Below the pieces are notes generated by a model. It was given only the letters and a program-made list of their open reading frames with translations. It was not told where the DNA came from and did no database searches. A stretch of DNA of 64,000 bases from Antedon mediterranea. Taxonomy: Eukaryota > Echinodermata > Crinoidea > Comatulida > Antedonidae. The position numbers and the translations under genes were made by a program. The stretch spans positions 22,006,501 through 22,070,500 of the forward strand of contig NC_092672.1 of assembly GCF_964355755.1 (NCBI RefSeq). The letters are read 5' to 3'. Within the stretch, counting starts at the first letter, position 1, and each line of letters starts with the position of its first letter. Of this stretch, positions 1,596 through 64,000 are shown in pieces.

Positions 1596-1676
1596 CTAAC
1601 GAGAGTGCTTGGAATATTTAAATATTTTTTCTTCGTCGTTGTTGCAAGATTACTTTGAGTTGTCGTTGTTTGATAC

Positions 1677-2540
1677 GTGAATGGAATTATGGCGAGACCT
1701 TCTCCGGGAAGAGCTACACCGATCAAAATGGCCGCTAGAATGAATGAGGCACCACCTGTGGCGGCTGCTGTAAGTTTAAAATTGCCGCCATTTTGGCCGA
1801 ATGACCCACTTATTTGGTTTGCGCAAGTGGAGGCTCAGTTTGTTACCAGAGGAATTACGGCTGAGGAAACAAAGTATTCGTATATAATTGCTTCTTTGCC
1901 GCCTAATATCGCACAGGAGGTTCGGGATTTATTGCTAAGCCCTCCATACCAGAGACCATATACCCATTTGAAATCGGAATTGGTTAAAAGGACATCCGTG
2001 TCGGAGCAAAAGCGTCTTCATCAGTTGTTAACAACGGAAGAATTAGGTGATCGCAAGCCTAGTCAGTTACTACGCAAGATGTACCAATTGCTGGGGGATC
2101 GTGATTTAGAGAAATCCATCCTGAAACAGTTGTTTGTGCAAAGATTGCCTACTAATGTTCAATTGATATTAGCGTCCACCCGTGAAGATATGGACCTTTC
2201 AGATCTGGCAGCGTTGGCCGATAAAATTTTGGAAGTTTCTCCACCACCACCTACTATTGCCACGACAATTAAGGATACGGGTGCACGCGCAACGTCAGAC
2301 GAATTAAGAGAATTGAGAGCTGAGGTTAGTAAGTTGACCAGCCTCGTTTCTTCCTTGGCGAAACAAGTCAGAGGCAGAAGCCGTAGTAAACAACGTGAAA
2401 GCCGAAAACGCTCGCCCTCTGCTACATCTAATGATGGTTTATGCTGGTATCATCATCGATATGGTAACAAGGCACATAAATGTAATTCACCATGCTCTTT
2501 TTCCTCACAGAAGGCGGGAAACGACCAAGCCAGCGACTAG
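1677..2540 (+). CDS. gag: Gag protein of Ty3/gypsy element
   Basis: A 287-residue structural (capsid/nucleocapsid) polyprotein. The first half has the helical gag fold signature beginning around [20 protein letters not shown] (residues about 37-56), usual for invertebrate Ty3/gypsy gag. A Ser/Arg/Lys-rich segment (about 232-248) precedes a single zinc-knuckle-like motif [18 protein letters not shown] near residues 256-273. The frame starts about 80 bases after the primer site; in-frame Met codons at 1677 and 1689 are both possible starts. It overlaps pol by about 49 bases in the -1 frame. The frame is unbroken. Confidence 0.9.
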
Positions 2541-5500
2541 AGACGGCGACAGCTGCTGGCGTTGGTGAAGGTAGTCGTCTATTTTTTATTTCTGATCGTA
2601 CTTCGGGACTTAGATTCTTAGTTGACACTGGAGTGGAGGTTAGCGTGTTACTTCCATCAATGACAGACAAGTTGCACCGGAAAACTGACTTTGTATTGCA
2701 AGCAGTAAACAAATCTACAATATCTACTTATGGGGAGCGTTCCTTAACAGTTGATTTTGGATTTCGACGCACGTATAGGTGGATATTTACTGTTGCTGAT
2801 GTGCCTAATGCGATTATTGGGGCCGATTTTTTACGACGTTTTGGTTTAATTGTGGACTTAAAAAATCGCCAACTTGTCGATGCTACTACTAGTATCAGTG
2901 TCAAGGGAATAGAATGTACCCTAGCATCACTTAGTCCGGTCTTTCCGACCCCAAAAGTAAATCCTCCTTTTCAGGAAATATTAAACAAATATAAAACGAT
3001 TACCAAACCATGTTTTCGTAATGGAAGCGTGAAACATAATGTTACACATCAGATAAATACAAATGGGCTGCCAGTTTGTGCCAGACCTCGCCGATTGTCT
3101 TCTGAGAAATTGAAAATTGCACGGGCTGAATGTGATCATATGTTACAATTAGGAATTATACGGCCCTCAGATAGTAACTGGTCGTCGCCGCTACACATGG
3201 TGCCTAAAGGAACAACAGGTGATTGGAGGCCATGTGGGGACTACCGAGCGTTAAATAATGTGACTGTTCCAGATATGTACCCCATCCCTCACATTCATGA
3301 CTTTACCGCGACTCTCTCGGGTTGCAAGATTTTTTCTAAGATAGATTTGGTACGTGCATATCATCAAATACCCGTCGAACCTAAAGACATTTCAAATACC
3401 GCTATTACTACGCTGTTTGGCATGTTCGAGTTCTTAAGAATGCCATTTGGTCTTCGAAATGCGGCACAGTCATTTCAGCGTTTTATTGACCAGGTGTTGC
3501 GGGGTATGAATTTCGTGTATGCTTACATTGATGACTTACTTATTGCCAGCATGGATACTGCTGAACATGAATTGCATCTTCAGGCACTTTTTAAACGTCT
3601 CGATGAATTTGGTATCATTGTTAATCCGTCCAAGTGTGTATGGGGTGTGTCTTCACTACAATTTTTAGGTCATCAAATTAACGAGTTTGGGATACAGCCA
3701 TTGCGTTCCAAGGTTGAGGCAATTGAACAGTTTCCAGTACCAGATACTGTGCGTAAATTACGTGAGTTTCTGGGATTAATTAATTTCTACAGACGGTTTA
3801 TACCTAGATGTTCGGATTTGATTCATCCATTAACTGATTTACTTGTCGGTAAACCTAAAAAGGCGATTGAACTATCTCCGACGGAAATTGAATCGTTCAA
3901 CAAGGTCAAGTATGCACTCGTCGAATCAACTCTTCTAGAACATCCACATCCTGACGCTGCATTGTGTTTAATGGTAGATGCGTCCAATTGCGCTGTAGGT
4001 GGTGTGTTGCAACAAATGGTAGCAGGGATTTGGCATCCACTTGCATTTTTTTCCCGACGTCTAAATCCGGTGGAAAGGAGATATAGTACTTTTGGACGGG
4101 AATTACTAGCTACCTATCTTGCAGTTAAGCATTTTCGCCACGTTCTAGAAGCTAGAACATTTTATATCTTAACTGACCATAAACCTTTAACACACGCATT
4201 ACGTTCCAGCGCAGATCGATATTCGCCGCGAGAGATACGTCACTTAGACTACGTCTCACAGTTTACCACGGACATTCGACACGTCAAGGGTAGCGAGAAT
4301 ACCGTAGCAGACGCACTGTCACGTATGGACTTGAATGCAGTGTCAGCTTCATCGGAGCTTTCTATTGATTATGACGTCATGGCTAGGCACCAGCAAAAAG
4401 ATGCGGAGTTGCTCGAACATCAGCATAAGTCTGTTTTCAAGTTGAGAGACGTACCGATAGCGACTAGCGGCGGTACTATTGTATGCGATGTCACCACTGG
4501 TAATCATAGACCATTCGTGCCCAAAGGTATGCGTAGGTTAGTGTTTGACTCTTTGCATTCACTTTCTCATCCAGGGATTCGAGCTTCACTAAAATTAATC
4601 GCTTCACGGTATGTTTGGCCTGGTATGAACAGTGATGTGCGGACATGGGCTAAGTGTTGTTTAAAATGCCAGAAGAATAAGGTTCATCGCCACACTGTGA
4701 CACCATTAGGTACGTTTGCGACGCCCGACATAAGATTCGACCACGTCCACATAGACTTGGTAGGACCACTACCTGTATCGGATGGTTATACTTACCTACT
4801 CACATGTATCGATCGCTTTACAAGATGGCCAGAGGCCATATCAATCACCAATATTACCGCTGAAACTGTAGCCAAAGCGTTTGTCACTGTTTGGGTATCC
4901 AGATTCGGTGCGCCATCCACCATCACTACAGACCGTGGTCGTCAGTTCGATTCGGCACTATTCACCGCCCTATCTAACATGTTGGGCACAAAACGCATTC
5001 GAACAACATCTTACCATCCTATGTCAAATGGATTAGTTGAACGTTTTCACCGCCAATTAAAGGTTTCGCTTAAGGCTCAAGATGATCCTCAGAAGTGGAG
5101 TGAAACTTTACCTTTAGTTCTTCTGGGTCTCCGGACAGCGGTCAAAGTTGATTTAGGCTGTTCTTCATCGGAACTGGTGTATGGAGCAACCCTGAAACTT
5201 CCAGGGCAGTTTGTCGCGCCTACTGATATCGCCTCACATGAGCCTGCGAATTACGTACATAGATTGCAAAGACACATGCAGAATATTCGACCAGTGCCAA
5301 CACGAGCGAATCAACGCACCGCACAAATCCACGATTTGCGTGAATGTACTCACGTGTTTGTTCGTTGCGATAGCGTAAACAAACCTCTTCAGTCTCCTTA
5401 CAATGGGCCATTTAAAGTTTTAAACAGAACTGACAAATACTTTGTTTTGAGCATCGCAGGTAAACATGAAACTGTTAGTTTGGACAGACTAAAAGTCGCC

Positions 5501-5671
5501 TATGTAAATAATGGTAAAGCTATTAACAACTTTCCAGAATCGTCAAGGCAACCGGAAGCAGGGCTTTCCCCAACCGCAAGTGCTATTCCAGTCGCACCTC
5601 CACCACGGCAAACGCGTAGCGGACGACATGTACACTGGCCACGTAAGCTTGCAGATTATGATTGCGGTTGA
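2492..5671 (+). CDS. pol: Pol polyprotein: protease, reverse transcriptase, RNase H, integrase
   Basis: A single open frame of 1059 codons carries the Ty3-type domain order. The aspartic protease has DTG at about residue 45. The reverse transcriptase has YIDD near residue 345. RNase H begins near residue 494 (MVDAS), with the conserved TDHKPL further on. The integrase has a zinc-binding HHCC module (about 690-727) and a D-D-E triad (IDLVG about 754, TDRG about 813, VERFHR about 850). Pol is in the -1 frame relative to gag, so it is probably made by ribosomal frameshifting in the T-rich overlap (2495-2503) rather than from its own Met. No chromodomain is seen at the C-terminus. Domain order and unbroken frame suggest potential activity. 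Confidence 0.95.
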
Positions 5672-5772: not shown

Positions 5773-6071
5773 TGTAGAGGCAATTTGCATATGTGTTAGC
5801 AGGTGTAACGAACGGTATGCAAACCTTTTTATTCTTTGTCTCTCTCTCAACTACCGACCGTCGAACAAGCAGGACGTATTTATTTTACTTACCGTTGTTT
5901 GTTAACACAAGGAACTTTGCGTATCCTGTACATGTACAGAAGAAACCATTATTATTGGAATATATTATGTGTATATAATTACGGAGCCAAGTATAAGAAG
6001 TTACTAATGATATTTGAACCCAATGCATGCTCTCACAACACAGTATAGTGGGTAAGTTGGATCTCACTAAA
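5773..6071 (+). repeat. 3' LTR
   Basis: Near-identical direct copy of 1276-1576. Preceded by the purine tract at 5761-5772 and followed by ATAC, the target-site duplicate of 1272-1275. Confidence 0.9.
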
Positions 6072-7585
6072 ATACCAACGTCGTTTAGCTGAGATTGACC
6101 AACATGAGATCGGGAACCTAACTTTTTTATAAAACGAACCATTTTGTTTTGAGTCGTTTGTAATTTTGATTTTAAATTTTTATTTACCGTAGAAGACCAT
6201 GAGCAAACCGAATAATCGAACATCGGTTGGATTAAAGCAAAACTAAGAATTTTGCGACAATGTGAATTAAGAAATGATGATTGTCGGTACAGAAATTTCA
6301 GTCTGCCGTTTGCTTTGTTTATAACAGAGCGGGCAATGACGTCTCCTGATACATTTTGGTCAATCTCAATACCTAGATATTTGATAGATTTTGATCCATT
6401 TATAGTCGTTCCAAAGCAATCAATATAGAATTCGTTTACTTTGCTTAATCTACGTTTAGAACCAAACAGGATGCATTCGGTCTTACCCATATGAAGCGAA
6501 AGTTGATTGTCGATCAGCCAATTATTGCATGATATGAGATTGTTTTGGAGTTTAGATTGGATTGCGATTGGATCTTTATGGGAGTAAAAAATTGCACAAT
6601 CGTCAGCGTACAAAACAACTTTACAATCACTTTCGATACTAGATGGTAGGTCATTCACGTAAATAAGAAACAAGAGAGGACCCAAAAGGCTACCCTGGGG
6701 GACTCCACATCCAATCTCAATAGAGTTCGATTTGGTACCTTTAATATCGACAATCTGATTTCGCCCAGACAGGTACGCTTGAAACCAACCGATAGACCGG
6801 CATCCTAGATACTTAAGTTTTTTACACAAAATATCATGATTGACCGAGTCAAAGGCCTTTTGGACATCGAGTAAAACCATACCCGTAAATAAACCATTTG
6901 ACATTTGAACTCTAATGTGATCTCTAAGATGGATAAGACATGTGTCGGTAGAAAATGATCTACGAAAACCGGATTGATGATCGAAGATAAGTTGATTCCT
7001 TTCAAGGTAATCGGAAACTTGTATATATACCACCTTCTCCAGAATTTTCGAAACTGAGGAGAGAATGCTTATAGGTCTGTAATTGTTAGCCTCAGTTCTG
7101 GAATTCTTTTTATGAAGGGGCGTGACTTTTGCGAGTTTAAAATCCGAGGGAATACGTTCGTATTTAATGGAAAGGTTAATTATATGTGTTATTGGTATTT
7201 TAATATTAGGAGCTCCGTCTCTAAAAAAATTTGCAGGAATCTGATCAAGGCCTACACTTTTAGATGGGTTGAGATTTCTCAATTCCTCTTCGATAAGGCT
7301 CTCGTCAATTTCTTCGAGAGAAAAACCAGAAACATGTTTGATTTTGCTATTATAGTAATTTTTAAAGGCATTCGAACCCACACTAAAAAGGTTACTGGGA
7401 GAAGGCAATTTCTTCATTAAATCGGAAGCAATATTTGCGAAGTATTTATTGAAATAATTTGAAACTTCGCTTTCATTATGGCAAAGATTCCCATTAACAT
7501 CTAACGTGCAAAAAATACAATACAAAACTATGTTCTTGACTAAAAAATCAGTTTGATTAGCAATTTTGCTAAACAAAATTTTCAA
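6072..7585 (-). pseudogene. LINE reverse transcriptase ORF, N-terminal and central part
   Basis: A minus-strand open frame encodes a non-LTR reverse transcriptase. Motifs in order are NYRPISILSSVSKILEK, QSGFRRSFSTDTCL, LLDVQKAFDSVNHDIL, GVPQGSLLGPLLFLIYVNDL and VLYADDCAIFYS (catalytic YADD near plus-strand 6598-6615). The upstream endonuclease is absent. The frame is uninterrupted to 6072, where the Ty3/gypsy element breaks it; its C-terminus is at 956-1275. Translation past 6072 into the LTR is an artefact. CR1/L2-group assignment rests on motif spelling and the tandem 3' tail. Confidence 0.85.
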
Positions 7586-7607
7586 ATGAAATTTTTCCCT
7601 GCTATAG

Positions 7608-8684
7608 TACAGATCGTATTCGGCTTCACGTACTAGCCTAAATCATTTTTTTTATGGGTGAGAGCCATTCTGACTAGGGATTCCATGCCACAATGGATGG
7701 CTATGTTAAAACATGGGGCCTACGGGCCTAGCTAGCCTACTAAACGATTGGCCCATAAATAACAAAACTCAGTGGATTCCAAACCCATCCTATCAACCAA
7801 ACTCAATAATAAACAATATAACCTAAAACGTTCTACAAAATCGGCTGTAAATATTGAGGCAAAACAAGGTCCGATTGCCGTCCGCACGTATAGTGGCTCG
7901 ATCGTCTAGTAGGCTTAAAATAGTTTACTCTCCTAAAAAGCGGAAGCTGCATCAAGCAAGTAGACCTAGTAGGAAGGAGACCTAGCCGATCCGGCCCAGT
8001 TAAAAATTGAGCTAGCTAGTGTAGTAGACCCTATGCGAATTGATACTACCAGTCCTTTTACTAGGCTACACTTGTTAAAATTAGCAATACTTATGTTTAC
8101 AAATATTCCAACTCTCTCATTCGAGCTATATTATCTATACCATTCAGGTAGGTCGAATCGACCTTCAATCAAATACTGTACATCGTTCATGTTGTGATTA
8201 TAGACGGGGTATACTTGACCCGACCAGTTTGGTATTGTATACTGTATCTGCTTATCACGTGACGATGCCAGGAATGGGCAGAGAGCACGTTTATCGTCTC
8301 GCTCAGAAGGAATGTACAGACGTTACGCTTCATTGATTTTTAAGGGTTTTTCCCTATTGTCAGTGCGAAAATCGGCAAACGTAAACTGAATCTCCAAATG
8401 ATTTTACACAATTGTGATGAATTTTCATAGAAAATTGACATTATAATAGGGAAGACCGACTAAAATTACATCAGATAAGCATAATTTTACAAAAGTAATT
8501 GATATGGTTAATGATAACGAGTCGTCGGAAGATCGACCATTTCACAAATTTTCCTATTCTGTAACAGTGTCATATCGCCGTAGCTTCACTTCACAGCCTT
8601 CATTCTGCTTCACCGCTCACTTTATAATAAGTGAAACTTTTACCGTTCAAGAGACAAACAATTATATTTTATTTTTTACTATTC
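7608..8684. other. Non-coding interior of the TTAA element, right side
   Basis: About 1.1 kb with AGGCCTA-type simple motifs and no supported gene. It carries TCAGTGGATTCCAAAC at 7769-7784, an exact direct repeat of 427-442. It also carries TAGTACAGATC at 7605-7615, a direct repeat of 611-621. Both pairs bracket the LINE and may be duplications from further insertion events. Confidence 0.5.
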
Positions 8685-9179: not shown

Positions 9180-9455
9180 AGTATGATCATACCATACCTC
9201 CATGATCATACACACTGTTTATATTTTGTGTGGTGTAACGAGTACAGGGGTAGGCCTATAGCTACAGCAGTAGGTCATAATCACTGTTTATATTTTATGT
9301 GGTGTAGTAGGTACAGTGGTAGGCCTATACTACAGCAGTATGATCATAATTACTGTTTATATTTTATGTGGTGTAGTAGGTACAGTGGTAGGGGTTCCTA
9401 TACTACAGCAGTATGATCATACTCACTGTTTATATTGTATGTGGTGTAGTAGGTA
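9180..9455 (+). repeat. Minisatellite, 69-73 bp unit, left block
   Basis: About four head-to-tail units share the core ACTGTTTATATTTTATGTGG, then GTAGTAGGTACAGTGGTAGG and TACAGCAGTATGATCATA. The array resumes at 10378 after an inserted element. Units drift by small indels. The open frames across it are by-products of the repeat period and not genes. Confidence 0.9.
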
Positions 9456-10377: not shown

Positions 10378-10960
10378 GGTACAGGGGTAGTCCTATACTA
10401 CAGCAGTATGATCATACTCACTGTTTATATTTTATGTGGTGTAGTAGGTACAGTGGTAGGGGTTCCTATACTACAGCAGTATGGTCATAATCACTGTTTA
10501 TATTTTGTGTGGTGTAGTAGGTACAGTGGTAGGGGTTCCTATACTACAGCAGTAGGTCATAATCACTGTTTATATTTTGTGTGGTGTAGTACGTACAGGG
10601 GTAGGCCTATAGCTACAGCAGTAGGTCATAATCACTGTTTATATTTTGGGTGGTGTAGTAGGTACAGGGGTAGGCCTATAGCTACTGCAGTATGATCATA
10701 ATCACTGTTTATATTTTATGTGGTGTAGTAGGTACAGTGGTAGGGGTTCCTATACTACAGCAGTATGATCATACTCACTGTTTATATGTTATGTGGTGTA
10801 GTAGGTACAGTGGTAGGGGTTCCTATACTACAGCAGTATGGTCATAATCACTTATAGAGCTGGAAATCATTCAAATATACACACTGTTTATATTTTGTGG
10901 TGCAATGGGTACAGTAGTATGGCTGCATCAGTGTGATCATACTCACGTAGGGCTGGAAAT
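10378..10960 (+). repeat. Minisatellite, 69-73 bp unit, right block
   Basis: Continuation of the 9180-9455 array with about six good units and two degenerate ones at the right end (10850-10960). Confidence 0.9.
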
Positions 10961-15489: not shown

Positions 15490-15792
15490 TTATGCATTTG
15501 GTGTCTTCTTCCTTTGAAGAGGTGAGTCATCAATAGTTTGGTCAACAATTTGGCTGCGGCAGTTGCCTCTCCTGGATGCCTTGGAACAGTTCGCAGCTAC
15601 ATACAGTGCATGCATATTGTGGCCAAACTGCATTGATGTTGGGTTTGTGTTACTTCCACCACATCCTCTCTGTTTACTGAAGTACCGTTCTAACGGATCT
15701 TGATTATACTTCGCACTTAGAACACACTCTACCCCTGGCAGGTCCAGTAATTTTTTAGTCAACTCTACAAACGAATTAACTGTTGATGGCAA
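15490..15792 (-). CDS. P-element-type transposase, C-terminal exon
   Basis: The minus-strand frame contains SAKYNQDPLERYFSKQRG, then GGSNTNPTSMQFGHN, and ends with a basic tail after RGNCRSQ. The pattern QDPLE-x-F-x-x-QR-x-GG-x-x-NP is characteristic of P-element/THAP9-type transposases close to the C-terminus. Upstream exons would lie to the right, inside 15793-17580, but I could not delimit them and no THAP zinc finger was recognised. It converges tail-to-tail with the plus-strand gene ending at 15331. Confidence 0.65.
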   Translation of the reverse strand: MPSTVNSFVELTKKLLDLPGVECVLSAKYNQDPLERYFSKQRGCGGSNTNPTSMQFGHNMHALYVAANCSKASRRGNCRSQIVDQTIDDSPLQRKKTPNA

Positions 15793-17580
15793 AGAATAAA
15801 AAATTAATATACTTATTATTAATTAATTAATATACTTTGTCACTCTTGTGATGTCAGAACTTTTGATTAATTATTAAACAAGTCAGCTGTAAAAAAAACC
15901 AAATGTCCTAGTAGTAGTACTATCTAGGCTATAGCTAACTAAAAATAAATACAGTACCTATTTTTTTTTATTGTTAATGTTGTTGAACATAGCCTAACCC
16001 AGTATAATTATGTCCTAGGCCTAGATAGTAGTATTGCTATTTTTGGCATACCCTAGGTGTGGTAGATTAACATTACCTCTATGATAAATAGTACATAGAA
16101 CAATAGGTAGGTCTAGCCTAGTAGGACTAGACCCTAGCTATGAGTCGAGTACTTAGTCCTAGTACGTCTTTTACGACATTTCGCGTAGTGATTAGGATGG
16201 TGTCCTAGTACATAAGTTCATGCTCTTGGTTTATTGTGTCATGAAAATAAATAATATATAATTACATATTATAATTAACAACACAGCAAAGGAAAGTAGT
16301 AATATTTAATAATGTAATTGTTTTTAATCTTTCGAGGAAAAAATTCAGTGCACTCATAATTTTTCTCGCCGCGTGTAGGCCTACCACGTAAAGTCACGTT
16401 GTCCTCTCTCAGGACTAATTAATAGTAATAACATTCTTCGAATGAGGTTAAATAAATATTATTTTTTATTTACTAATCTTTTAATATCATATTTTATTGA
16501 ATTTTACAATGTTAATACACAAAATATTTTACTAAAAAACGTGATTTTATGTAATTATTTTACCGAAAAATGGAGTAAGCCTACCTAGGCCTAGGCCTAG
16601 GCCCTAGTTGTTTATGTCATTTTTGGCTAAAAACGATCACTTTCGGTGATGTTTTATATTTTGGAATCTACAAGCCAGATTTTCACAATTATTTCTTTCA
16701 TTATAATATTTAATAATATATATACTAAAAACCATGATATATAAACTTTTGAATGTACATCGATCCCTAATATAAATTGAACGAGCACCGGCGAAAGTTA
16801 GCATTTGGCGTTCCAAAAAAAATAACGTTTTTCTGGTGGCGGCTCAACTTGTCGGCGGCTCAACTTGGCCTAATCCAGTAGTAGCTGGCCTACGAAAGTA
16901 ATTGTTTTATGGCTAATGTTAGTTATTATTTATTGGTTTAAGACCTAGCCTAAATTAAACATCGAAACAATAACTAGGCTTAGACCTAAGTAATACAACG
17001 ATCGGTGGACCAAAATAACTACGACCGGTGGAACTACCGAACTAACTCCGGCTATTCGGTTCGGCGGTCGGATAGATTCGATGCTTTTCAATTCGTTGTA
17101 CGCCAGCCGGACACCATCGGAAAGTGTCATGCAACGCATCAAATGAAAGCTACAGCTTTCCTTTATTCATATAACTTAAAACTCCAGTACAAAGGGAAAT
17201 TATTAAAATACGTGTTTGTTTCGTTGTTATATTCAAAATAATGGAATACTTACAATTGATGAAACAAGTAGTTATATTTGGTTGATTTTATTGATTTAAT
17301 GACTGGTACGTTCGCAAAAAAATTCGGAATCCGAATACATAAAACACGCATGTGAATCCTTGCTGACAATTAACTGCGCATATGCAATGTGTTTTTTGTT
17401 CGTATTTATGTACTCCACTGTTAGTTAGAACGGGGAATAGGGGTTGCTACTTAGCGGCGAGGAGCCTTGTGTGTAAGGAGATCGAACCGAGATAACACGG
17501 CGGGCGGTCGCAGTGCAATTTAATAGGAGTCATTTGACCATGTAATGTGCTTAATTGGATTAAAATCCATGCATTACATC
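15793..17580. other. Right half of the P-like element, no delimited exons
   Basis: AT-rich sequence with AGGCCTAGGCCTAGGCC at about 16586 and a GC-richer patch at 17440-17520. Upstream exons of the minus-strand transposase should lie here if the copy was once complete, but none could be supported. Confidence 0.4.
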
Positions 17581-25229: not shown

Positions 25230-26228
25230 ATTTTCGGCCGCTATAAATGTATTGGCCACGAAACATTAATTACATTACTCAAAATTTGCGCCACCTTAAT
25301 TCTGTAGTATTTGTCCATAGTATTTCAAGAACGAATTCTGCTCTTTATAATATTTTTAATTCATTTCCCACAGCTGTTCCCGCTATGCATAATTTTTCTG
25401 AAAAGTCCAGCGCCCTCAGACGGAGGAGAGTGGTAGCAGACGACGTTCACAGTGATTACGGAAACCGCGCGAGCCTTGAATTCTATTTACATTGTCAACG
25501 AAATCGGCGATTATGATAACACTTTTATCGTCAAAGTGTAAACATCATATATAAACATTTTGATTAGCGTATTCATACATGTTATTATAAAATAATCATT
25601 CTACCTAAGATTTAGAGTGAAATATTAAATAAATTATTATAAAGTGTATTTTTTCTAAATAAATCAACGACTATATAAACGGAAGTAAAACAATAACAAC
25701 GATGAACAGCGCCACATAGTTGTAAACAACGTAAGTTATTAAAATTATCTTTGAATCTGTACTTATTTTGTTTGCAATCCTAATTATTAAGTAATACTAT
25801 ATTTACTATGTGATAAATCAATATTATATAAATAAATAGGTTTAGGTTTGGTAAAAAGGTGACGGTAAAAAAATTGAATAAATCGCCCGAATGTACACCT
25901 CTCTTTCCGAACGAACTGTGTAACGGTTGGGTACACACGAATTAGAGGCGCGGGGATGACCGCGCCGAGCATACCTAATATGCTGGCCTAAACTCTAGGC
26001 CTAGGCCTAGGAATTGATTGTTAAGTTATTTTGTAGTCTACCTTGTCGAAAGTTGAAAGTGTTAATTTTCTGATATATCTATATGTTTATAAATTATTTT
26101 GTATGTTGCAAGTAGGCTGGTATGGTAATATTTATTATACTGAGGTAGGCCTACATTTTGAATATGTACCATTATATAGCCTATTACTGTAGGCCAAAGA
26201 CTATATCAACATTTTTTTTGTTTTGCAG
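25230..26228 (+). promoter_or_regulatory. Presumed promoter and 5' UTR region of the RAG1-like gene
   Basis: The coding start at 26232 lies three bases after an acceptor (TTTTGTTTTGCAG), so at least one non-coding 5' exon must lie upstream. GC-richer, CpG-containing patches occur at 25397-25500 and 25880-25975, and a TATAAA-like CTATAAATG at about 25240. A donor-like AACAACGTAAGT at about 25732 could end a 5' UTR exon. No choice between these can be made from sequence alone. Confidence 0.35.
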
Positions 26229-26231
26229 ATC

Positions 26232-29200
26232 ATGGAGTTTCACGAAAAGGCGCTGTCGTCAATATGTTTCTGTTGTGGGAAAAAAATTAAACGTAATGAT
26301 GAAAGATATAATTTAGAAAATATGAAAATCACACCACAATCATTTGACGTTGAAAATATTAATCTTCCCAAAGCACTATGTTCAACCTGCCATTCCAAAT
26401 TTTGTAAGGGACATATTTTGACACCTTTTCAGTTTCAATCGCATAGCGAAAATCATTGTGTAACCTGTTACTTGTATACAAATCAGCAAAGACCAGGCCC
26501 AAGACCGAAGCCTTCTAATCTAAGAAGCAAGAGTGGTATATTTTCAAAAGATATCACTCCACTTCCTGCAGTCAGTCGGCAGTTTGTTATTTTTAACCAA
26601 GTTGATGAAATCTATCAGTGCAATATTTGCAACAACCTGTTGTCACTTGATAGCATCCAAACACCCTGTTCCCATTTCTTTTGTACCTTCTGTGTCAACA
26701 AATTATTTAATGCCCTTTCGAAACCATCAATTCCTTGTTTTATTTGCAGCTTCAATTTTAACAAAGATAATTTGATCAAAATTCCAACAATTTTAGAACA
26801 TTCATTATCTTCTGTTTCACTTAAATGTCGCATATGCAAGGAAGAGTTATGTTTAATGGGAACAGTAGGCCATAGTTGTAAGACCGACAGAGAACAGGCA
26901 TTTATGACTATTCAAAATGCTGTGCATCAAATTGAAGAAACTACAGCTGCAAGTAATGTGTTCCCCACAGAACTGACAAAATTGGCTCATAAACTGGTAC
27001 ACAAAGATGTGACAAATGGGCAAATGTCTTTAAAAACTCAAGGGCGGGTAAGATTCAAATTCTGTTTTAAAATCAAATGCATCTTATAATATTTTTACAA
27101 AAATTAATACACTAAATGTTACTATTTTCTTCTGTATATTAATTCATAATTTTTTAATAATAAACTAGCCACTCAAGATGGTTACTAAATCACAAGCCTC
27201 CACAACTGTAGTGACAACAGAAATTAAACAACAACAAATGGATGGGATGAAATGTCTTGCAATTATGAATGCATGCAAAATTAATTGGTCTCAGCAAAGA
27301 GTATTACGGAGGTACAGTACTGTATGTTTACAAATAAAATTACCCAACTTTAATTATAGAAAGTTCAAAACCTATTTGTATACAGGCCGCAATCTGAAAT
27401 GTGTGTTAAATAAATTCTTTTGAACCAAAGTAGCTTTGAATTATGTAAAAAATAATTGTTACACATACTACTGTATATTAATATATTTTTAATTAGTAGC
27501 TGAATCACAATTTTAAACATTTTTCTATAAATATTTTAGATTTTGCCCAGGCTTGTTTGCATCTGAGAGGGAAATGAGGTCAGTACAAGAAAAGATAGTT
27601 GGGGACTACTTAGTTAAATCTTTAGAGTATATGTTTGTGAAGAGAGAATGCGCAACTTCAATTGGAGGCCTGGTCCTGGAAGAGGTACCTGTTGTTAGGT
27701 TGACAAACATAAAACAGTTGGTGTTCGACTACTTAAATCAGTATGACATGTAAGTTCAACTTTATTTCATTATTATTCTATTATGGTTAACAATTGTACT
27801 GTATTATATCTTTATGTAACCTTTATACAATTTTAGATGCCAAATTTCTCACTTATACAATTATTTATTTAGGTCAGAACAACCGTTGCACTACCATGAT
27901 GGGGATATTTTTTTGAAATTTGGTGGGGACAAGGGTGGGAATTCAACGAAATTCGAGCTTCAACTTTGTTGTTTGGAGAAACCAAATGCTTTGTACAACA
28001 TAATGGTTGTACTTGTCTTTGAGGCTCCAGACTTGACAGTCAATATCGAGAAGGGACTAGACCTTATATTAGATGAAATAATGGAGTTGGAAGGATGTCA
28101 GTGGACTTCCCCAACAACACAACAGTAAGTTAATGCAATCATCAAACCATGATTTATATTTTTTTAAACCCTACTGTATAAAGAAGAATAAACTACTATC
28201 ATGTAATTTGGCAATGATTTTAATGACAGATAGTTAATTTTGTGTCTAATATATAAAAGTAATTTTTTTTCAGAACCCACAAAATCAGATTGTTCGTGTT
28301 TGGGGATTATGACTTCCTTTGCCGGTTATATGGATTGATTGGGCCAAATGGTGAGTACATTTTGTTTATGTTTTTTTTTGTTTGTTATGTTTATTTCACC
28401 AAATTGTAATTTCAGAATTGTATTCCTTTCAGGAAAGTACAGTTGTATTTACTGCTATGCCAGCCAAGAGGACATAAAGCATAATAAGAAGCCAAGTGAA
28501 AACAGGTGCCTTAATTCCTATAATAAGGACTTCAAGTGCTTTGTGGACCATGGCAGTGACCCCAAGAAAAGTAAATTAATATCGCACAGCATCATCAGGC
28601 CCTATATGCTAGGTATTGAATTAGACAAAGTGAGTAAACAATCTTCATAATTATTGTAGGCGTCGACTTATTATTATTAACATTTTTGGATTGATAAAGG
28701 TTACAAAAAAATATTAAAATTTGCATTACATACATTATCTATTTACAAACTACAGTATACTAAAAACCAATAAATACACTGATTATGTTATAATAACATC
28801 TAGTACGAAACTTACTCCAAATAATGAGTGAGTCATGATTCAACATTTCGGTCTTTATCAGGAATGATGATGATCCAAATAAAAATCGACTTCTCATTTA
28901 AATTTGGAATAAGCTTTATACTATGTAGTAAACAACAATCAAAAGTTAAACAGTTATATTATTATTATTAGTATCATAACATTAACATGTATTACCTTTA
29001 TTCTCCATTATATAATTCCATGTATTACAAAATTAATATTTTCCAGGTATCAATTCCAGCACTTCATATATCGCTAGGTCTCTTTAAGAAGATGTATGAT
29101 CAACTTGAAAAAGAAGTTCATAACTTAGATCTCATCATATTTAATATGAGACAGGATGCTGCTATTCAGATTGGTAAAAACTTTTTTTTTCTAATAAAAT

Positions 29201-30476
29201 TTTTACATTTTTCCAGAAAAATTTCCAATTTATGATCACTATAAATTAACCTAATATCATTAGGTGGTAACCTGCCAGACTTTGAGAAGACAATTTTGCA
29301 AGCAGCATCAAAGCGAAGTTCATGTACACAAAAAATCAGTTCTGTAAATGAGGAGCTTGATGAACTGAGAAATACACTCTCTCTGTCACTAGTGAAACAC
29401 AATGATGCTAACGAAATTTCTGAAATCACCAACAAAATATATCTGAAAGAACAGAGTGTTAAAGACTTGGTTAGTTAATTTTATTTGTTTAGTTTACTAC
29501 ACTATTCAATTAGAAATAATCACTAAAAGCAAAATATGTATTTGTGTTTCAGCAATCTACTATGAATGAAGAAATCAAATATGCAACCGGACCATTATGT
29601 ACAGAAATGGACAACATTTTAACAGCAAACAAAATACCCCGACAACAATATCACGGGAAAAGTTTTGTTGGCAATCATGTGTATAGAGCATGCAAAGTAA
29701 GTACTAAAATGGTCAAAGTCTCTTAATTAAAGAAATTATAAATATCTAATTGCAAATTAAATTGACATACAGATGAATAACTCTCTTGCATACGCATTGC
29801 CCAACACTAAAAAATACCATTCTTTTCTCAGTTTAACATTATAGACAAGTTAATGGATGGATTGGAAATTGTATTGAAGCAACAGATGCATCATTGCAAA
29901 GACAAACACACAACCATTCTAGCGACAAAACTGTCGAAGATAAGACAGTCATTTACGCCACCATTTAAACTGTTTAGTCAAGTTCATGCATGCATCAACC
30001 ATACACGATTCATTGATGATCCTGAAATTGATGCATATGGTAAGTCCAAAATAAAATTTCTTTGCAAAATCATGTTTAAAATAATGAAAAGGGGCATTGC
30101 AACCATCAAGAATAACAGATATACATAAGAATAACTCTTAATAATTTTTAATTTCTTCAATATAGAACATGCAATAAAGTCATTCTCTGTAGAGTACAGA
30201 AAGATTGCCCCTGGTGTGGTACAGCCGAAACTCCACATGTTGGAGCATCACTCTGTACCATTTATGCGTCGATGGAAGGTGGGCATCGGCCTACTTGCAG
30301 AACAAGGTGGAGAATTAATCCACTCAGAGTTCAACAGACGGAAAAGGGCCGTTCATGGTATTAGAAATAATCTTGATCAGCTAATGTCTATAATGAAATC
30401 CCATCTGACATTTACCTCTCCAGAAATACAGCAGGTACAAATACCAATCAAGAAATCCAGAAAATCAGAAGACTGA
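26232..30476 (+). CDS. RAG1-like protein: RAG1-type N-terminus with DDE transposase-like core
   Basis: Eleven coding exons, all GT/AG and in phase, give 896 residues: 26232-27047, 27169-27311, 27540-27749, 27873-28124, 28274-28350, 28433-28629, 29047-29173, 29264-29469, 29553-29696, 29832-30039, 30166-30476. The N-terminus matches the RAG1 N-terminal layout: Cys12 to Cys15, CSTC at 50-53, H75/C76/C79; a C3HC4 RING (130, 133, 146, 148, 151, 154, 169, 172); then a finger with C199/C202/H214. The rest resembles a DDE transposase related to the RAG1/Transib core: GGDKGG (D409), FGDYDFLC (D485), CIYC (504/507), ALHISLG (571-576) and LLAEQGGELIH (E839/E843). Residues about 640-680 may form a coiled coil. 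Vertebrate RAG1 is about 1040 residues. The known mollusc N-RAG-TP transposon also carries a RAG1-like N-terminus. The domain match is strong; recombinase activity is inference. Confidence 0.85.
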
Positions 30477-30538
30477 ATAAAGAATGAAAACAAGGGGATT
30501 TGTAAAATATTGTACATACATATGTGATTAAACAAGAA

Positions 30539-30544
30539 AATAAA
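30539..30544 (+). terminator. Poly(A) signal of the RAG1-like gene
   Basis: AATAAA lies 63 bases after the stop codon. Another AATAAA overlaps the stop (30476-30481) and is too close to be the main signal. Confidence 0.55.
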
Positions 30545-30549
30545 ATTTA

Positions 30550-33500
30550 CCTCAGGGCTTTAATTTGATGATCTGGTATACACGCTCTTCATACTTGGTA
30601 CTGTTGGATTCAATTTGACTTCCTCTTTCACAAGTTCAGTTTCAAAACCCAAATGTGAAGAACAATTTAAAAAAAAACATTTAAAAACAAATTATACTAC
30701 AGTATTTTATTCCAAATTTTCAATGTTATAGTTTGCCGTACTGTATGATGTAAGACAAAAAATGTGTTGATTATTATTAAAATCAATATTTTTCATTTTT
30801 GCAATTAAATAGCCATTTAAAAAAAAGGACAGAATTGGTTATGGTTTTATATATTAGTATACTTAAATTTAATGTGTGCTGTAAAACAATAAAGTGTTTT
30901 TTAATAGAAAAAATGACTTACCAAACACCAATTGTTTTTCACATTTCTAACAATAGCATACAATTTCTTCGTTTTCCAGTACTACTAGGGCCTAGGCCTG
31001 AACAAAAATAGTTATATTGTATCATTATGTATTATGAATATATATGGACTGGTACATGGAATGTGAATATAATGTTACTACAGTGTAAATAAATTTGTTG
31101 TTGCATGGTTAATAAATGTTTCACTAGGCTAGCCTACTACTACTACTACTACTACCGTAGTTTACTAACTAGGCCTCCAAGCTTAGCCAGTAGTAGAATT
31201 AGGCCTAGAATGTAATCTCATCAAAATTTATTGTTTGTATGTGACTTGTAATTGTATTGTAAAATATAAAAATCCTTTACATCCACGACCAGTTAAACTA
31301 TTCTCTCTACTCACTAAAACTAGGCCTACTACTAGTAGGCCTAGCCAAAGCTACACCGGGTAGGCCTAGTACTAGTAGTACTACTACTACAACAGTAGTA
31401 GAGTAGTACTACCCGGGGGCCTATTTAGACTAGGCCTAATTTAATAATTTAAGAAATAAAGATTTATTATCAATTATTATTGTTTAAAAATCAGTAGTAA
31501 ACATTTTGTGTAACATAAATATAGTTTAAATTACTATAGACTATAGTACTATGCATATTCTTAGTGGCATTACTCCCTAAGGTTGGAGTGACCCACTCAT
31601 ACCCACAAACATTTCAGTGAACAAAAAATGTATAATTTTCCATGAGCCTTCGTTGTACAGCAGCAGCCGACAAACATACACACTAATCAAACAATTGTCA
31701 TCTATATACACCCCATTCGGCAAAATATTTACCATAGAGAAAGTATCGTTTTGACCATTATTCAATGATATATATGATGGTAATTATACTTGGCCTCTAT
31801 GTTGACAGCCAAAACACAGTTATTGTTTATTGAACATAGGTCTTACAAACTAATGTCTGCATACTGTACATATCTCAAAGACCCTCTGTGCACATGCCCA
31901 GTTTGAGTTTACAAATTCCCATTTAGACTTTCTTACCAGACGTGCTTTGGGGTGTGCTCATGACCAGTTTGTGTTTCTAAATACCCATTTTTTCAGCCTC
32001 AGTGATCTATTATAAGCTTCTGCATGGCTAATGCTTCCGTTCTCTTGAATGTAACTGACTAAAGGACTGGTGCGAAAATTATTGTTTACTTTTGAAAATT
32101 AACTTTTTTATTTATTTTATTTACTGAAGTATAAAAAATGTTGATGGGATAAGCAATGATTATGGAACATACAGCACTTTATTTGTTTATTGGTATACTC
32201 CTGGTGAGCATGGTCTACTATGAAAGTTTTAGCCTCAGTGAATATTATTCACATCCTATACACAATATATTGAACTTTTTGTCTTGAATGTTCATCAAAA
32301 TAAAATATTAATATCAGATTATTTATTTTTGTTTTAAATTAGTTATATAGGATTTATATAATTTTTTATTACATAATTGTTAGTTGCATTAAATTTGTTT
32401 GAAATGTCAGTATGTATACATATGAATAAATAATGTTTATTATTTCTTTTATAATTATTGTATAATGTCTTATTTCCAGTGATTGTTTTTGTTATATCCT
32501 TGAAATAAAAAGAATATAATATTTTTTTTTGGTGTAAATTTTAATCATTTTAATAAGTCAATTCAATAAATATAAAACACAAATAATAAAGATGTTATAA
32601 AATCTATTAAAATGTATAAATTTTAATATTTTTTACATTGATATGATTTGTTTGGCATCAGCCAAACCTTCACCCACTTTAAAGACAGCCTTGAGCTATC
32701 CAGGGAGGTATGAAAATGGTCATGGTATTTCTAAAAACTGTCCATTTGATCTAACAAATTTAAAAAATGAAAACATGTTTATACATATATCTGTTATGTG
32801 GTTCAAAAAGATGTCTAAAATTAACTTGTTTATCTATTTTAGTCGTGTGCAACGTGACTCTACAGCTCACTATGTTGGTCAGTCGGTGAACACTAACTCA
32901 AATTTGCGCACACGACTGCAGCCATGTATATGGCCTTGTTTTTTTATCAGATTAAACTCAACATTAATATTGTTACAATCAATATTTAGACTAATGTGTG
33001 TACGTCAAACCTCTTAAAACGGACAATGTTTTGTTGGTACACTAACAAATCTTTCTTTAGAATAGTGCAGGCCATTATCTCTGATAATATAAAATAATAG
33101 ATTTGCATTACATACAAAATAATATTCCATGTGCAAGGCTTCCAATTGAAATGAAAGTACCAAAGCAATCGACAAAATAGCATATGCTACACTCACAATA
33201 ATTTGTACTAGCTAATGCCACCATCACACCATAGAGCAATGAACTATTTCTTTGCTCTATGATCGCACAAAGGATAATTTAAATATATTAACGTTTTAAA
33301 CATGCCCCTGAAAGTAAAAGTTTGTACACCAAACCAATCCAGTAATTTAATATTTAAACAATATTAAATTTAAAAAAGTTAAATAATTTAAATACCATGC
33401 AACAACATTTTTATGTAAAAACTGGAATAATAATAAAAATGTATACAAAAGTAGAAATAAAATTTAAAAAAGCTAATTTGATAGTATTTGTGTGCATTGC

Positions 33501-57600: not shown

Positions 57601-60600
57601 TTGGAACAAGATTTCGATGGTGTTAAATGTGGCGATAAGCTCATGGATACAACTCGTTTAAAGAGCCTATTTTCGGAAGGTAATTGAAATTTTGAATTAT
57701 CATCAACATTTTCTTCAATAGCAATATTATTAGTTTGTTTTAATGACATAGGAACATGTGTGTGTTTGTTTGTTTTTTTTTCATACCACATCAATACAAT
57801 ATACAAAGATGTGTCTAGAAATATCTGCAAAGGCCCTTTGAATAATAGATAACATTTATTCTTATTATTTACAACCTAATGAAAATCAGTTGACTAATTG
57901 GCATTTGGGGTTTTTAACATTTTTTAAAAAATAAAACAGGTTTAGGCTAATTAGCTAAACATTTATCCCAAATAACTTGAGGCGTCATGTAAATCTATTG
58001 TTTTCCCTGCAGAAATCTTTCTTCTCACAATAAGGATTTATCTATCTGCAGTATTTATTCTGGAAGGCCTGCATAACTTTAAAATAAATATTTAATTTAA
58101 TAATTTCTTTTCCAAGAATACATGTACTGATAGATATCTTTTGTTTGCATAGATACACCAGATGCTACTACTACTCCTCTGGCTATAAGCTCATCATTAC
58201 CATCAGGTCAGTTGATTGATACACCAGATGATACTACTACTCCTCTGGCTATAAGCTCATCATTATCATCAGGTCAGTTGATTGATACACCAGATGATAC
58301 TACTACTCCTGTGGCTATAATCTCATCATTATCATCAGGTCAGTTGATTGATACACCAGATGATACTACTACTCCTGTGGCTATAATCTCATCATTATCA
58401 TCAGGTCAGTTGATTGATACACCAGATGATACTACTACTCCTGTGGCTATAATATCATCATTATCATCAGGTCAGTTGATTGATAACATTTGTTAATTAT
58501 AAATTACATTATACATTACATACAATTTAAAAATGGCAATAGCTAATTCAGAAAACATCAGCTAATGTAGAAACATCAACAGTTAAAAATATGTTATATG
58601 GTACTTGATATGTAAAGTTTGGAAAATGTTAGTATTTTAAACAATTTTTAATAAGGAAAATGTCAAAGATGGTGGTTTCTGACAAATCTCATGATTTCAA
58701 AAAAACATGAATAAGGTCCAATTTGAATTGCATAAAACAGTGTATCCTAGTGTTGTTAACAGAATAGTTTATTTAATAAAAACTAACTTTTAAATGTGTA
58801 TTGAATAAATTGTGATACTGTTTTTGTTATGACTATGTATATCTTTTATTTTGTATAGATACACTAACTACTACTCCTCTGGCTACAAGCTCATTACGAA
58901 CAGGTTAGTTGATTATCATTAGAGATCCTTGGATAGGGTAGTGTTACAACCACTAATGTAGAAAATATTAGCTAATGTTGAAATGGCAATAGCTAAATGT
59001 AGAAATAACAAATTGCTCATATGTAATTAGTACCAGCTAAGGTGAGAAAATGCTTCACAACTACTGTTGTGAACTACATCAAGAAACCTGAAGTTAAATG
59101 TAATATAAAGTTGGTAATACATAAGGATAACAACTAAGGAGATTCTGTATTAATCACTTTCAACTACCATATCTGTTTTTTGAGGATATTAATTATTCCC
59201 TATGCAGCAATATAATTATGGTGTTTTAGGAATTTATATTCATACATCAGACATATTCAAACAATGATTATCAACAACTATGATAATTATGCTAATTATT
59301 TGAAGCCACTCATTTAATGAATGGTTTTTCCCATCAAAGTTTACTGTCCGATTATAAATGAATATCATGACAAAAAGTATAACTGTCATAAGTCTTAACC
59401 ATTTTTTTGCAAACCATATCTCTATGTTTTTGTAGCCTCTTTATCTACCCACTAGACTAGACTCATTAATGTACAATAGTTAGCATATGATGCATCATGT
59501 AGATATGGAAGGCAACAAACAACTGACATACACCATTTTAAATCTCTATGTTTTTGTAGCCTCTTTATCTACCCACTAGACTAGACTCATTAATGTACAA
59601 TAGATAGCATCTGATGGATCATGTAGATATGGAAGGCAACAAACAACTGACATACACTATTTTAAATCTCCATGTTTTTGTAACCTCTTTATCTACTCTC
59701 ACTAGACTAGACTCATTAATGTACAATAGATAGCATATGATGCATCATGTAGATATGGAAGGCAACAAACAACTGACATCTCACTAGACTCATTATTGTT
59801 ATTTGGCTATCCTTAGAGACCATTATGTATCATATGGAAAGTTGTCAAATGAAAAATATATGAATAGGATACGGAATCATAAAACAGTGCATCTTAGTGT
59901 TATTAACAGAACAGTGTATTGAATTCAATTCACATTTATTTACTCATCCTTTATAGTATACTGTAGTTTCATAGAATAATTGATGGCAAGGATCCTGCAT
60001 AAAGAAGTTTACACTCCTGTTTTCGCAGGACCCTTTTACATAAAAAAACATAAAACAATAAACACAACATAATAGATATAAAGTAAAAAAAACATTTTAA
60101 ATATACATTTTATATATACATTTTAGAGTTGTTCATCATCAAAAAGCGATAGTGTTTTTCTAACATGATTATTGTGATACTGTATTCTTTATATGTATAT
60201 GTTTATTTTGTATAGAAACACAGACAACTACTCCTCTAGCTACAAGCTCATTACGAACAGGTTAGTTGATTATCATTAGATCATTAGAGATCCTTGGATA
60301 GGGTAGTGTTACAACCACTAATGTAGAAAATATTAGCTAATGTTGAAATGGCAAAGCTAAATGTAGAAATAACAAATTGCTCATATGTAATTAGTACCAG
60401 CTAAGGTGAGAAAATGCTTCACAACTATGATGAAACTACTGTTGTGAACTACATCAAGAAACGTGAAGGATAGATACATTATGTGAAGTTAAATGTAATA
60501 TAAAGTTGGTAACACATAAGGATAACAACTAAGCAGATTCTGTATTAATCTCTTTCAACTACCATGTCTGTGTTTTGGGGATATTAATTATTCCCTATGC

Positions 60601-61208: not shown

Positions 61209-64000
61209 TAATAATAATAATAATAATAATTTATTGGAAACTTCACTTTTACAACAGTGGCACACTTTGATGATAAAGGTGCGTCCAAATAATAACATAC
61301 AAGAATAAATAAAATTATTAACTTAAAAATAAATCAAAATGAATGAATGAAATACAAAACATAACTCTTACAAAAACAAAAACAAATAAGTAAATACTTT
61401 AAATCAAAATAAATAAATAAAACAAACTTAAGAGGAATAAAAATAAATAAAAATGTTTAGATACACACAGAATAAATAATAAAATTAATTTCATGGTATG
61501 AATCAAAACAAAGAGTATAACAGTGTGTGTAATACTCAACACTAAGGCATAATAAATAAAATAAAAAGACAAAGATTACTAAACAGAAATCACACAAAAG
61601 TTGAAAAGCAATTCAAAACACAACAGCATTGACATTACAAGTTTAAAAGAGCACAACGTTTCTTCCATAAAGATTTAGCCAATGATTTACAAAATTTGTC
61701 GATTGAAGTCTTAATAATATTATCAAATAAATCATGGACATTGCCTAGAATAAGAAGTTTTTTTTTTAATAAATCTAAATTTTGAAAATAATCAAAGAGA
61801 TAAAAAAGATTAGATTCCAAAAGTTCTTGTTGGAATTTAGCGATTTGGTTTTTTTTTCTCTTCTTCTAGAGTGGTACATGTTAGGAGAAAGTGCATAATG
61901 GTTTCTTCTTCATTTCTGTTGCACAATTTACAACAACCATTAGCATTAGGGTCATTTGACCATTTAGATGTTTTTCTTTCAAGGGGAAGGGTGTTTGATC
62001 GCAGCTTAAATTTTAACGATTCTCCTTCAAAGTCAATTTTATCAAGTAGATACTGTTCATGTTTTGGTTCATTTTTTATATACATATAATGTTCAATTGA
62101 CGTTTTACATTTACCGTCTCAACCCAATACGAGAGAGCTAGATTTTCATAATTATTTTTGTATTGGAAGCCCAGTTGGCATCAAAGTTATCATTACCATT
62201 TCGAATATCAGAAAAAATATCATGTGTACCACAATTATCAATGATATTTCGAACACAATGGAATTTTAAATGATAGATCATTAAAGTTCTCTGTCAATTT
62301 AACTAGTGTTTTCAGTAATATCCTATGCCAACGTTCATCTTTCATCCTTAAAATTCTTTCCATATAATTAATTCTATTTACATTTTGAATATATGAGATT
62401 TTTGACCACCCAAGTTCCCCATAAAGAGTAGCACAAGGGGTATTCCTAGAGGCCTTAAGGATAAACCTTGCCATTTGTAATTGTAGTCTTTCAATTCTTT
62501 CACAATCACTTTTGCTACCAACCCAAATAGTACTATCATAATTTATTGATGGAAGTGCAATTGTTCGCCAGAGGATATCACCATAATATACTCTATTAAA
62601 ATTGTTTAAATTACCAATTATGGCTTTTATATAGCCTATGAGTCGGTTACATTTTTGTATAATAATATTCTACATGGCTATGGTCATTTGCACCTCTTGA
62701 TATCATTACACCTAGATATTTATACGTTTCACACTCAGTTATCGACTGGTCTCCTAATTTCCATAACTTTTGTTTATCTATTTTCTTACCTACAACAAGT
62801 ACATTTGATTTAGTTGGGTTAAATAGCATTTTCCAATCAATGGCAAATTTTGCAGTTAGTTGTAACATGTGAGTCATTTATTGCTCATTTTCAGCTAATA
62901 GCACAATATCATCTGCCCAGAAAAGGGCTCCTTGCCATACGTTATTAATATGAACTCCTATATCATTTAATTTTAGAATTTTTGTGAGCTCATTGATAAA
63001 TATACAAAACAGAATAGGAGATAGCACACATCCCTGTCTAACTCTTTGTTCAATTGAAAATTCATTAGTTACAGTATCCCCAAATTTTACTTTCCCTTTG
63101 ATATTTGCACACATGTTATCAATAATTCTCCACAAACGCCCTCTTATTCCTATATTCCATATGGCTTTCAGGAGCCCATCTCCAAACGGAATCAAATGCC
63201 TTTCGGAAGTCCAGGAAAGCTAGATAGGTGTTTTTTCCTTCTTTTTTTCTTAAAGCAGTTATACTTTTAATTACAAATGGTCCTCACACCTATGATCTTT
63301 CCTGAAACCACCCTGGACTTCCGTCAATTCATTATCACTTTCCAAATAGTTTGATACATTCATAGCAATTACTCTATTAAATAATTTTGATACACAAGAT
63401 GTAAGAGAGATTCCACGATAATTGTTCAAATCTCTCTTATCACCATGTTTAAAGATTGGAATAATTAAACTTAAATTCCAGTCTTCTGGTGGGTGTTCAA
63501 AAAGGATGATTCTATTAAATAAATCTAACAGAGATTTTACCATAATATGACCACCATTTTTTTAAAGTTCATTAGTAATGTTATCTTTCCCTGGAGATTT
63601 AAAATTTTTTTGCAAATACTTAATACATATTTTATACTTTCAATATCAATAGAAATATCACATAGAGGATCTGTAGCCTCATCCTCATCTCTGAACAAGA
63701 CTTGTTTCTAATGTTTTGTATACAGTTCTCAGTCATGTATACATTATTATTGAATGTATTATTTTTAGAATTACTTAGCGATTCCCAATAGTTTCTTAAT
63801 GTTTTGGCTTTTTCTTCAACGCTAGTAACAACTTGTTCCGACCCTGGAACAAAATCAGTATTTTGTTTGTTAAACTTTGACCCCCTAATTGTTTGCCAGA
63901 ATTCCTTACAATTTTTACCTCCTTTGTTTGCAATAACAATTGATTTATCTACCCTCATTTCTAATATCTTTTGTTTTATCAAATTCTTAGCAAACAACCG
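61209..64000 (-). mobile_element. Decayed non-LTR retrotransposon, continues past the window
   Basis: The minus strand runs 5' to 3' from beyond 64000 to an (ATT)n tail at 61209-61232. Segments in order are a pre-RT linker with NCKEFWQTIRGSKF (63632-63997), NYRGISLTSCVSKLFNRV and QGGFRKDHRCEDHL (63271-63543), RQGCVLSPILFCIFINEL and FWADDIVLLAE (62878-63195), TKSNVLVVGKK and YKYLGVMIS (62647-62877), and a C-terminal zinc-knuckle-like CCKLCNRNEEETIMHFLLTC (61837-62085). Frame changes between segments show that it is dead. F-x-ADD and the terminal finger separate it from the CR1-like LINE at 712-7590. It inserted into a copy of the 124-bp repeat. Confidence 0.85.

Follow-up and report, generated by a model that had tools for sequence, protein, structure and literature searches.

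Chapaev DNA transposons are characterized by target duplications of 3–4 bp, CAC/GTG termini, and a transposase with DDE, C(2)C, LH, and H(4)H motifs (PMC4079192). The Pfam family DUF1280 was assigned to Chapaev transposases, grouped with RAG1, in a 2014 survey (PMC3985635), and Chapaev transposases consisting of a Chapa zinc domain, a RING, and a core of the Transib superfamily were described in 2015 (Kapitonov and Koonin, PMC4411706). The nearest other described systems are vertebrate RAG1, the ProtoRAG/RAGL transposons, the Aplysia element N-RAG-TP, and HzTransib. Here we describe a gene in a 64,000-nucleotide stretch (the window) of the genome of the feather star Antedon mediterranea (NC_092672.1, positions 22,006,501 to 22,070,500; part of contig C3 of the 354-Mb assembly), which is very probably the intact transposase gene of a Chapaev transposon copy.

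The predicted protein resembles the Chapaev transposases of PMC4411706 in its order of parts, with a Chapa zinc domain first, then a RING, and finally a core of the Transib superfamily. The original prediction that a RAG1-type N-terminus and such a core are joined in one gene is supported, but the fusion itself was already known, having been in print since 2015 (PMC4411706). The Antedon family shares CAC/GTG ends and 3–4 bp duplications with the Chapaevs of PMC4079192 and differs from those of PMC4411706, compared by description only, in its crinoid host and its unequal bipartite ends. With vertebrate RAG1, which acts together with RAG2 on 12/23 recombination signal sequences (RSSs) in V(D)J recombination, it has in common the order of N-terminal zinc ligands, the RING, the finger, a GRP motif, the predicted core fold, and the DDE, CxxC, LH, and HxxxxH residues, although the sequence likeness of the cores remains below significance. 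Asymmetric bipartite ends starting with CAC are also found in ProtoRAG/RAGL (PMC8289069) and a RAG1-type N-terminal zinc region in RAGL transposons (PMC7204232); these elements, however, carry RAG1L and RAG2L, and ProtoRAG has spacers of 27/31 and another inner motif (PMC8289069). N-RAG-TP is likewise described as a mobile element encoding a protein like the RAG1 N-terminus (PMC8355894, PMC2996935), but with the N-terminal-like part only (PMC8355894), whereas Transibs are without the RAG1 N-terminal region (PMC7204232), and HzTransib has symmetric ends (PMC8289069).

Assignment of the Element to the Chapaev Family

The DUF1280 profile matched the window transposase with 49 bits, against a cut-off of 25. 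Comparison of copies placed the gene within an element copy at 25369–31438 (forward strand, as are all features of the gene and element below), with the gene-upstream (left) terminus intact and the right one lost at 31438; the limits 26232–30476, first proposed for the locus, hold for the coding sequence but not for the mobile element. The left terminal inverted repeat (TIR) carries the terminal sequence CACAGCTGTTCC at 25369–25380, which is identical in the related copy L036 and shows the motif of copies flanked by perfect 4-bp duplications. Scanning the window by itself for inverted repeats and TIRs brought up nothing outstanding; it was the copy comparison that located the ends.

Three sister copies of the window element were found, on contigs C9 (L035 with its right part L043), C6 (L036 and L044), and C1 (L037 and L045), with DNA identities to the window of 92–99% piece by piece, mostly 94–99%. 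The window copy diverges from L043 at 31438, where L043 runs on to an intact right terminus. Each sister copy keeps one element end, the C9 copy being without the left one; a right terminus was detected neither in the C6 and C1 copies nor, within the window, in the window copy. Because its right end is lost, the window copy shows no target duplication of its own. In a side observation on 31384–31438, the right parts L043, L044, and L045 all match the window up to 31424–31438. At this point the window copy, L044, and L045 are cut short, close to repeats of the AGGCCTAG type, a possible hot spot of breakage or recombination.

The mobility of the wider family was examined in the same genome. A search with the A. 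mediterranea protein P0002, in which 91 of 245 candidates were scored so that the counts are lower bounds, gave at least 107 exon-level matches in at least 50 clusters, at least 28 of them with multiple matches; residues 1–267 of P0002 are 100% identical to the assembly at two places. Three copies, L031, L032, and L033, have 6.8 kb in common at 99.35–99.75% identity, the sharing ends at CACAGCTGTT...AACAGCTGTG, and they are flanked by different perfect 4-bp repeats (GATG, CCAG, and AGGA, respectively). The near-identity of these copies suggests that they have moved recently. A 4-bp repeat also flanks L038, of a diverged subfamily (GTCG), and L040 (GTCC), whose ends were found from the terminal motif alone, as well as L034 (TCTC, inside a TC repeat), L042 (ATCT), and L039 (AGTA), which were found through matching CAC ends plus a repeat, so that in these three the duplication itself helped to choose the end. 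Altogether, all eight copies with both ends read have CAC...GTG termini and a 4-bp target duplication, and the window contributes its left terminus only. Three further groups, L046–L049, L050–L053, and L054–L055, did not show CAC ends with a 4-bp repeat and were left out of the count of seven subfamilies.

Thus, all the Chapaev hallmarks of PMC4079192 were found in the family. DUF1280, the CAC...GTG ends, the 4-bp duplications, and the multicopy state identify a Chapaev transposon, and the window gene is not a RAG1 gene. That none of the four copies of the window subfamily keeps both ends weighs against this assignment. It is highly improbable that the locus is instead a true RAG1-like (RAG1L/Transib) gene, directly related to the RAG transposon: the RAG1-type N-terminus and the RAG1/Transib fold predicted for a sea-star homologue would suit such a gene, but the protein matches DUF1280 and not the RAG1 core profile PF12940, the duplications are of 4 bp and not of the 5 bp of Transib (PMC8355894) and RAG, and the element is without a long second frame. 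No second long conserved frame was detected in the element, and no RAG2/RAG2L partner was recognized, the flank frames sharing at most 39 residues between subfamilies. No relatives were found in a scan of viral contigs or in a search of phage DNA.

Gene Model and Coding Signal

Eleven exons with GT/AG borders are joined in phase from 26232 to 30476 into a stop-free frame of 896 codons plus a stop, exactly as originally predicted. Exon 1 (26232–27047) encodes the Chapa-type CxxC/CxxC/HxxxxCxxC region (residues 12–79), the RING (130–172), and a C2HC finger (199–216), and it ends at the GR of the GRP motif (residues 271–272). Exon 2 (27169–27311) is followed by exon 3 (27540–27749), in which the DUF1280 match (residues 350–463) begins, exon 4 (27873–28124) with GGDKGG, and exon 5 (28274–28350) with FGDYDFLC. 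The remaining exons are exon 6 (28433–28629), exon 7 (29047–29173), exon 8 (29264–29469), exon 9 (29553–29696), exon 10 (29832–30039), and exon 11 with the stop codon (30166–30476). A pyrimidine tract and an AG 3 bases 5' of the ATG (26212–26231) suggest, in addition, a spliced non-coding first exon upstream.

The spliced models of two relatives from the same genome, L031 (890 aa, 62% identical) and L034 (897 aa, 63% identical), are stop-free and contain all 11 exons, of which exons 3, 4, 5, 6, 7, 9, and 10 are equal in length in the window, L031, and L034. The exon borders of L031 and L034 were selected among GT/AG sites by their fit to the window protein; this layout is therefore support, not proof, for the splice model, which is a predicted one and more than chance.

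Codon comparison with the sister copies, with gapped codons excluded, revealed an excess of synonymous changes in each case: 6 non-synonymous and 8 synonymous changes over 896 codons against L035 (one-sided p 0.0027), 6 and 8 over 891 codons against L036 (p 0.0028), and 21 and 24 over 734 codons against L037 (p 1e-6), with pN/pS of 0.19–0.23. These ratios, the loss of the right end, and the intact window frame beside the broken models of all three sister copies could be taken as signs of domestication, in which the feather star would have captured a Chapaev transposase for a cellular role, as with RAG1. We consider this improbable. The gene is not a single copy devoid of mobile ends, since it has sister copies and a left terminus; the high identity of these copies, each with one element end, implies that the lineage moved; functional ancestors of all the copies would leave just such a signal of selection; and stop-free models were also obtained from five other subfamilies (L031, L034, L039 in part, L040, and L042).

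The RAG1-Type N-Terminus

The zinc ligands of the N-terminus, C12, C15, C50, C53, H71, C76, and C79, the eight ligands of the RING between C130 and C172, and those of the finger, C199, C202, H214, and C216, lie at the positions first claimed for them and are all invariant across the window protein, P0002, and P0003. A family profile built from seven N-terminal sequences aligned with a stretch of human RAG1, whose sequence was checked against Protein Data Bank (PDB) chains, with an hhalign score of 91.2 (E 4.6e-13), whereas 100 shuffles with Cys and His fixed reached at most 38.8. The part preceding the RING scored 44.2 by itself, against a maximum of 23.5 among 100 shuffles of the same kind. 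Among PDB sequences, the family profile matched RAG1 best (E 5.9e-6, residues 123–220, covering the RING and finger), closely followed by BRCA1 (9.1e-6). The Pfam family RAG1_imp_bd was matched by L039 at 3.6e-5 (above the cut-off, best stretch residues 1–29), by L040 at 0.0018, and by L041 and L042 at 0.049, with no match in L031 and L034 among the six N-termini scanned, nor in the window.

Several results for the window protein by itself weigh against this relationship. In a phmmer search, its RING was nearer to BRCA1 (2.6e-7) than to RAG1 (3.3e-6), its RING matches fell under the Pfam cut-offs, and neither PF12560 nor PF12940 matched it at E ≤ 1. The proposal of a RAG1-like N-terminus is thus borne out by the family profile but not by the window protein searched with PF12560. 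The sequence comparisons nevertheless show that the N-terminal zinc region of the window family (Chapa, RING, and C2HC finger) and that of RAG1 are homologous. Beyond the finger, T269, G271, and R272 are invariant in all six proteins compared, at the place where RAG1 has the GGRP opening its nonamer-binding domain. A weak match to an IS66-type zinc finger at residues 10–54 (E 0.028) was set aside, the RAG1-type alignment explaining the region better, and the predicted structure of exon 1 alone was uninformative (mean pLDDT 38.6).

The Proposed Catalytic Core

Database relatives comprise those of the sea stars Asterias amurensis (P0003), A. rubens (P0004), and Patiria miniata (P0005), as well as P0001. 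The core has the RAG1/Transib set of D, D, CxxC, LH, HxxxxH, and E. The proposed first catalytic aspartate is D409 (27928–27930; RAG1 D600), whose counterpart in P0003 sits in the predicted first strand, and the proposed second is D485 (28305–28307; RAG1 D708), with spacings to the CxxC and LH motifs equal to those of RAG1. The cysteines C504 (28444–28446) and C507 (28453–28455) in exon 6 correspond to RAG1 C727 and C730, and H572 (29065–29067) in exon 7 to H795. In exon 11, H817 (30234–30236) and H822 (30249–30251) correspond to H937 and H942, E839 (30300–30302) to E959, and E843 (30312–30314), the proposed catalytic glutamate, to E962. All of these residues, together with L571, are invariant in 6/6 sequences, and D409, D485, and E843 form a putative active site. 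The best local alignment of the core with human RAG1 begins exactly at D485/D708, and a comparison by VIA-align indicated that the homologue P0003 is predicted to have the RAG1/Transib fold.

Other results weigh against the relationship of the cores. PF12940 gave no match at E ≤ 1 in the window protein and five relatives; a search of the genome with this profile was uninformative, as it gave no matches anywhere and the controls were equally silent. The core profile did not match human RAG1 significantly, 4 of 60 shuffles scoring equally high, and the structure of P0003, which is 34% identical over the core, has a mean pLDDT of 55.2 and is based on 12 alignment rows. The RAG1/Transib core first seen by eye is upheld by its invariant landmarks and the predicted fold of P0003, but not by the profile comparisons with RAG1.

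Unequal Ends of the Element

In each element, the gene-upstream end was found to be long-spaced and the gene-downstream end short-spaced. In the window, an inner A-rich motif, AAAGT, lies at base 34 of the long-spaced end (25402–25406), and a second inner motif, GCGCC, at base 42 (25410–25414). Read inward, GCGCC begins at base 42–43 of the gene-upstream end (window, L036, L031–L033, L034, and L038) and at base 33 of the gene-downstream end (L031–L033, L034, L038, and L043); in the decayed L037, it begins at base 38, off the usual spacing. L039, L040, and L042 are without GCGCC and have the A-rich motif at 33–34 versus 23–24; across the seven subfamilies, this motif lies at bases 33–35 gene-upstream versus 23–25 gene-downstream.

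A motif-free test, in which one end was slid along the other beyond base 13, gave best shifts of 9, 10, 10, 9, 9, 10, and 11 bp in the seven subfamilies (the ends of subfamily S1 being taken from two copies, the window and L043). Their scores add up to 54, whereas the best of 500 shuffles attained 51. When every long end was paired with every short end, the best shift was 9–11 bp in 38 of 49 pairings, and short ends compared with each other gave shifts of 0–2 in 20 of 21 pairs. The seven subfamilies are not seven independent events, because they share descent. With the terminus taken as 7 bp and the A-rich block as 9 bp, boundaries that were set with RSSs in mind, the spacers are about 21–23 versus 11–13 bp, as in the short end of L039 (CACGGTG, 12 bp, ACAAAAAGT), and on this count the long and short spacers resemble a 23RSS/12RSS pair. 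When the RSS nonamer was searched for blindly, its best match in the long ends lay at spacers of 21–24 in 6/6 subfamilies.

Against the likeness to RSS pairs, the blind search found a spacer of 12–13 in only 3/6 short ends; in S1, S5, and S6 the best match of the short end coincided with the shared motif, but in S2, S3, and S4 it lay elsewhere. With only half of the short ends fitting, the resemblance to the nonamer is weak, unlike the shift itself. Also on the negative side, long ends agreed less well among themselves than short ends did, with a best shift of ≤1 bp in only 9 of their 21 pairs. Unrelated transposons commonly have asymmetric ends as well, P elements and piggyBac among them. We somewhat favor the view, otherwise compatible with the assignment to Chapaev, that the difference of 9–11 bp is an ordinary left/right asymmetry sharing no history with the 12/23 rule, in line with the inconsistent resemblance to the nonamer and with the symmetric TIRs of most Transibs, which are nearer to RAG (PMC8289069). 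The co-occurrence of a terminal CACRG, an A-rich inner motif, a shift of one helical turn, and a RAG1-type N-terminus speaks against this view, as do the asymmetric 27/31 ends of ProtoRAG (PMC8289069). That the family requires one long and one short end to be paired is conceivable, though we lean slightly the other way, and a common origin of such pairing with the 12/23 rule appears rather unlikely. It is similarly doubtful that Chapaevs with a full RAG1-type N-terminus use an obligate long/short pair, read through the terminal CAC and an A-rich inner motif held by the GRP region. On this reading, the split between Chapaev and RAG/Transib would be younger than both the N-terminal module and a rule of the 12/23 type, and the symmetric ends of Transibs would represent a loss. 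No report of unequal Chapaev ends was found in the literature searched, which included the available text of PMC4079192, PMC4411706, and PMC12730594, with Repbase outside its scope.

Other Features of the Window

The window also contains a putative LTR retroelement with long gag-like and pol-like frames (1674–5671; reverse transcriptase, RNase H, and integrase motifs recognized by eye), a 585-residue frame on the reverse strand that resembles a non-LTR reverse transcriptase by eye (5885–7642), and further reverse transcriptase-like fragments on the same strand (62238–63219). A remnant of a P-element/THAP9-like transposase lies at 15490–15822 on the reverse strand (Pfam TNP-like_RNaseH_C, E 9.4e-9). 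Two related tandem arrays of 69- and 73-bp units were found at 9202–9455 and 10391–10852, and a 66-bp tandem repeat (5.1 copies, 98%) at 58152–58485 is open in frame and would encode repeats of a Thr/Ser-rich unit of 22 residues.

Proposed Mechanism and Implications

The anatomy of the element supports well a cut-and-paste transposition by a DDE transposase, which would act as a dimer. The core would recognize CAC at each terminus and cut with the D409/D485/E843 site, while a region beyond the finger, located at the GRP motif, would grip the inner A-rich motif, comparable to the nonamer-binding domain of RAG1. One long-spaced and one short-spaced end would be paired in a RAG-like manner, and the element would be inserted through a 4-bp staggered cut. 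The RING is probably a ubiquitin ligase and/or a dimerization module, as in RAG1. It weighs against this scheme that the GRP contact, the E3 activity of the RING, and the long/short pairing are modeled on RAG1 only, and that the splicing, expression, and activity of the window gene are predicted ones. The window copy should not move itself, because its right end is lost, but it could still supply the enzyme to other copies.

In the near-identical and hence probably recently moving copies L031–L033, a stop-free model (built on L031) unites a RAG1-type N-terminus with a core for which the RAG1 fold is predicted, and the role of such an N-terminus and RING in transposition thus becomes testable outside lymphocytes. 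If the two unequal ends are indeed needed together, one could trace on the tree of Chapaev, Transib, and RAG where the 12/23 rule arose, and its start with the RAG transposons need not be assumed.

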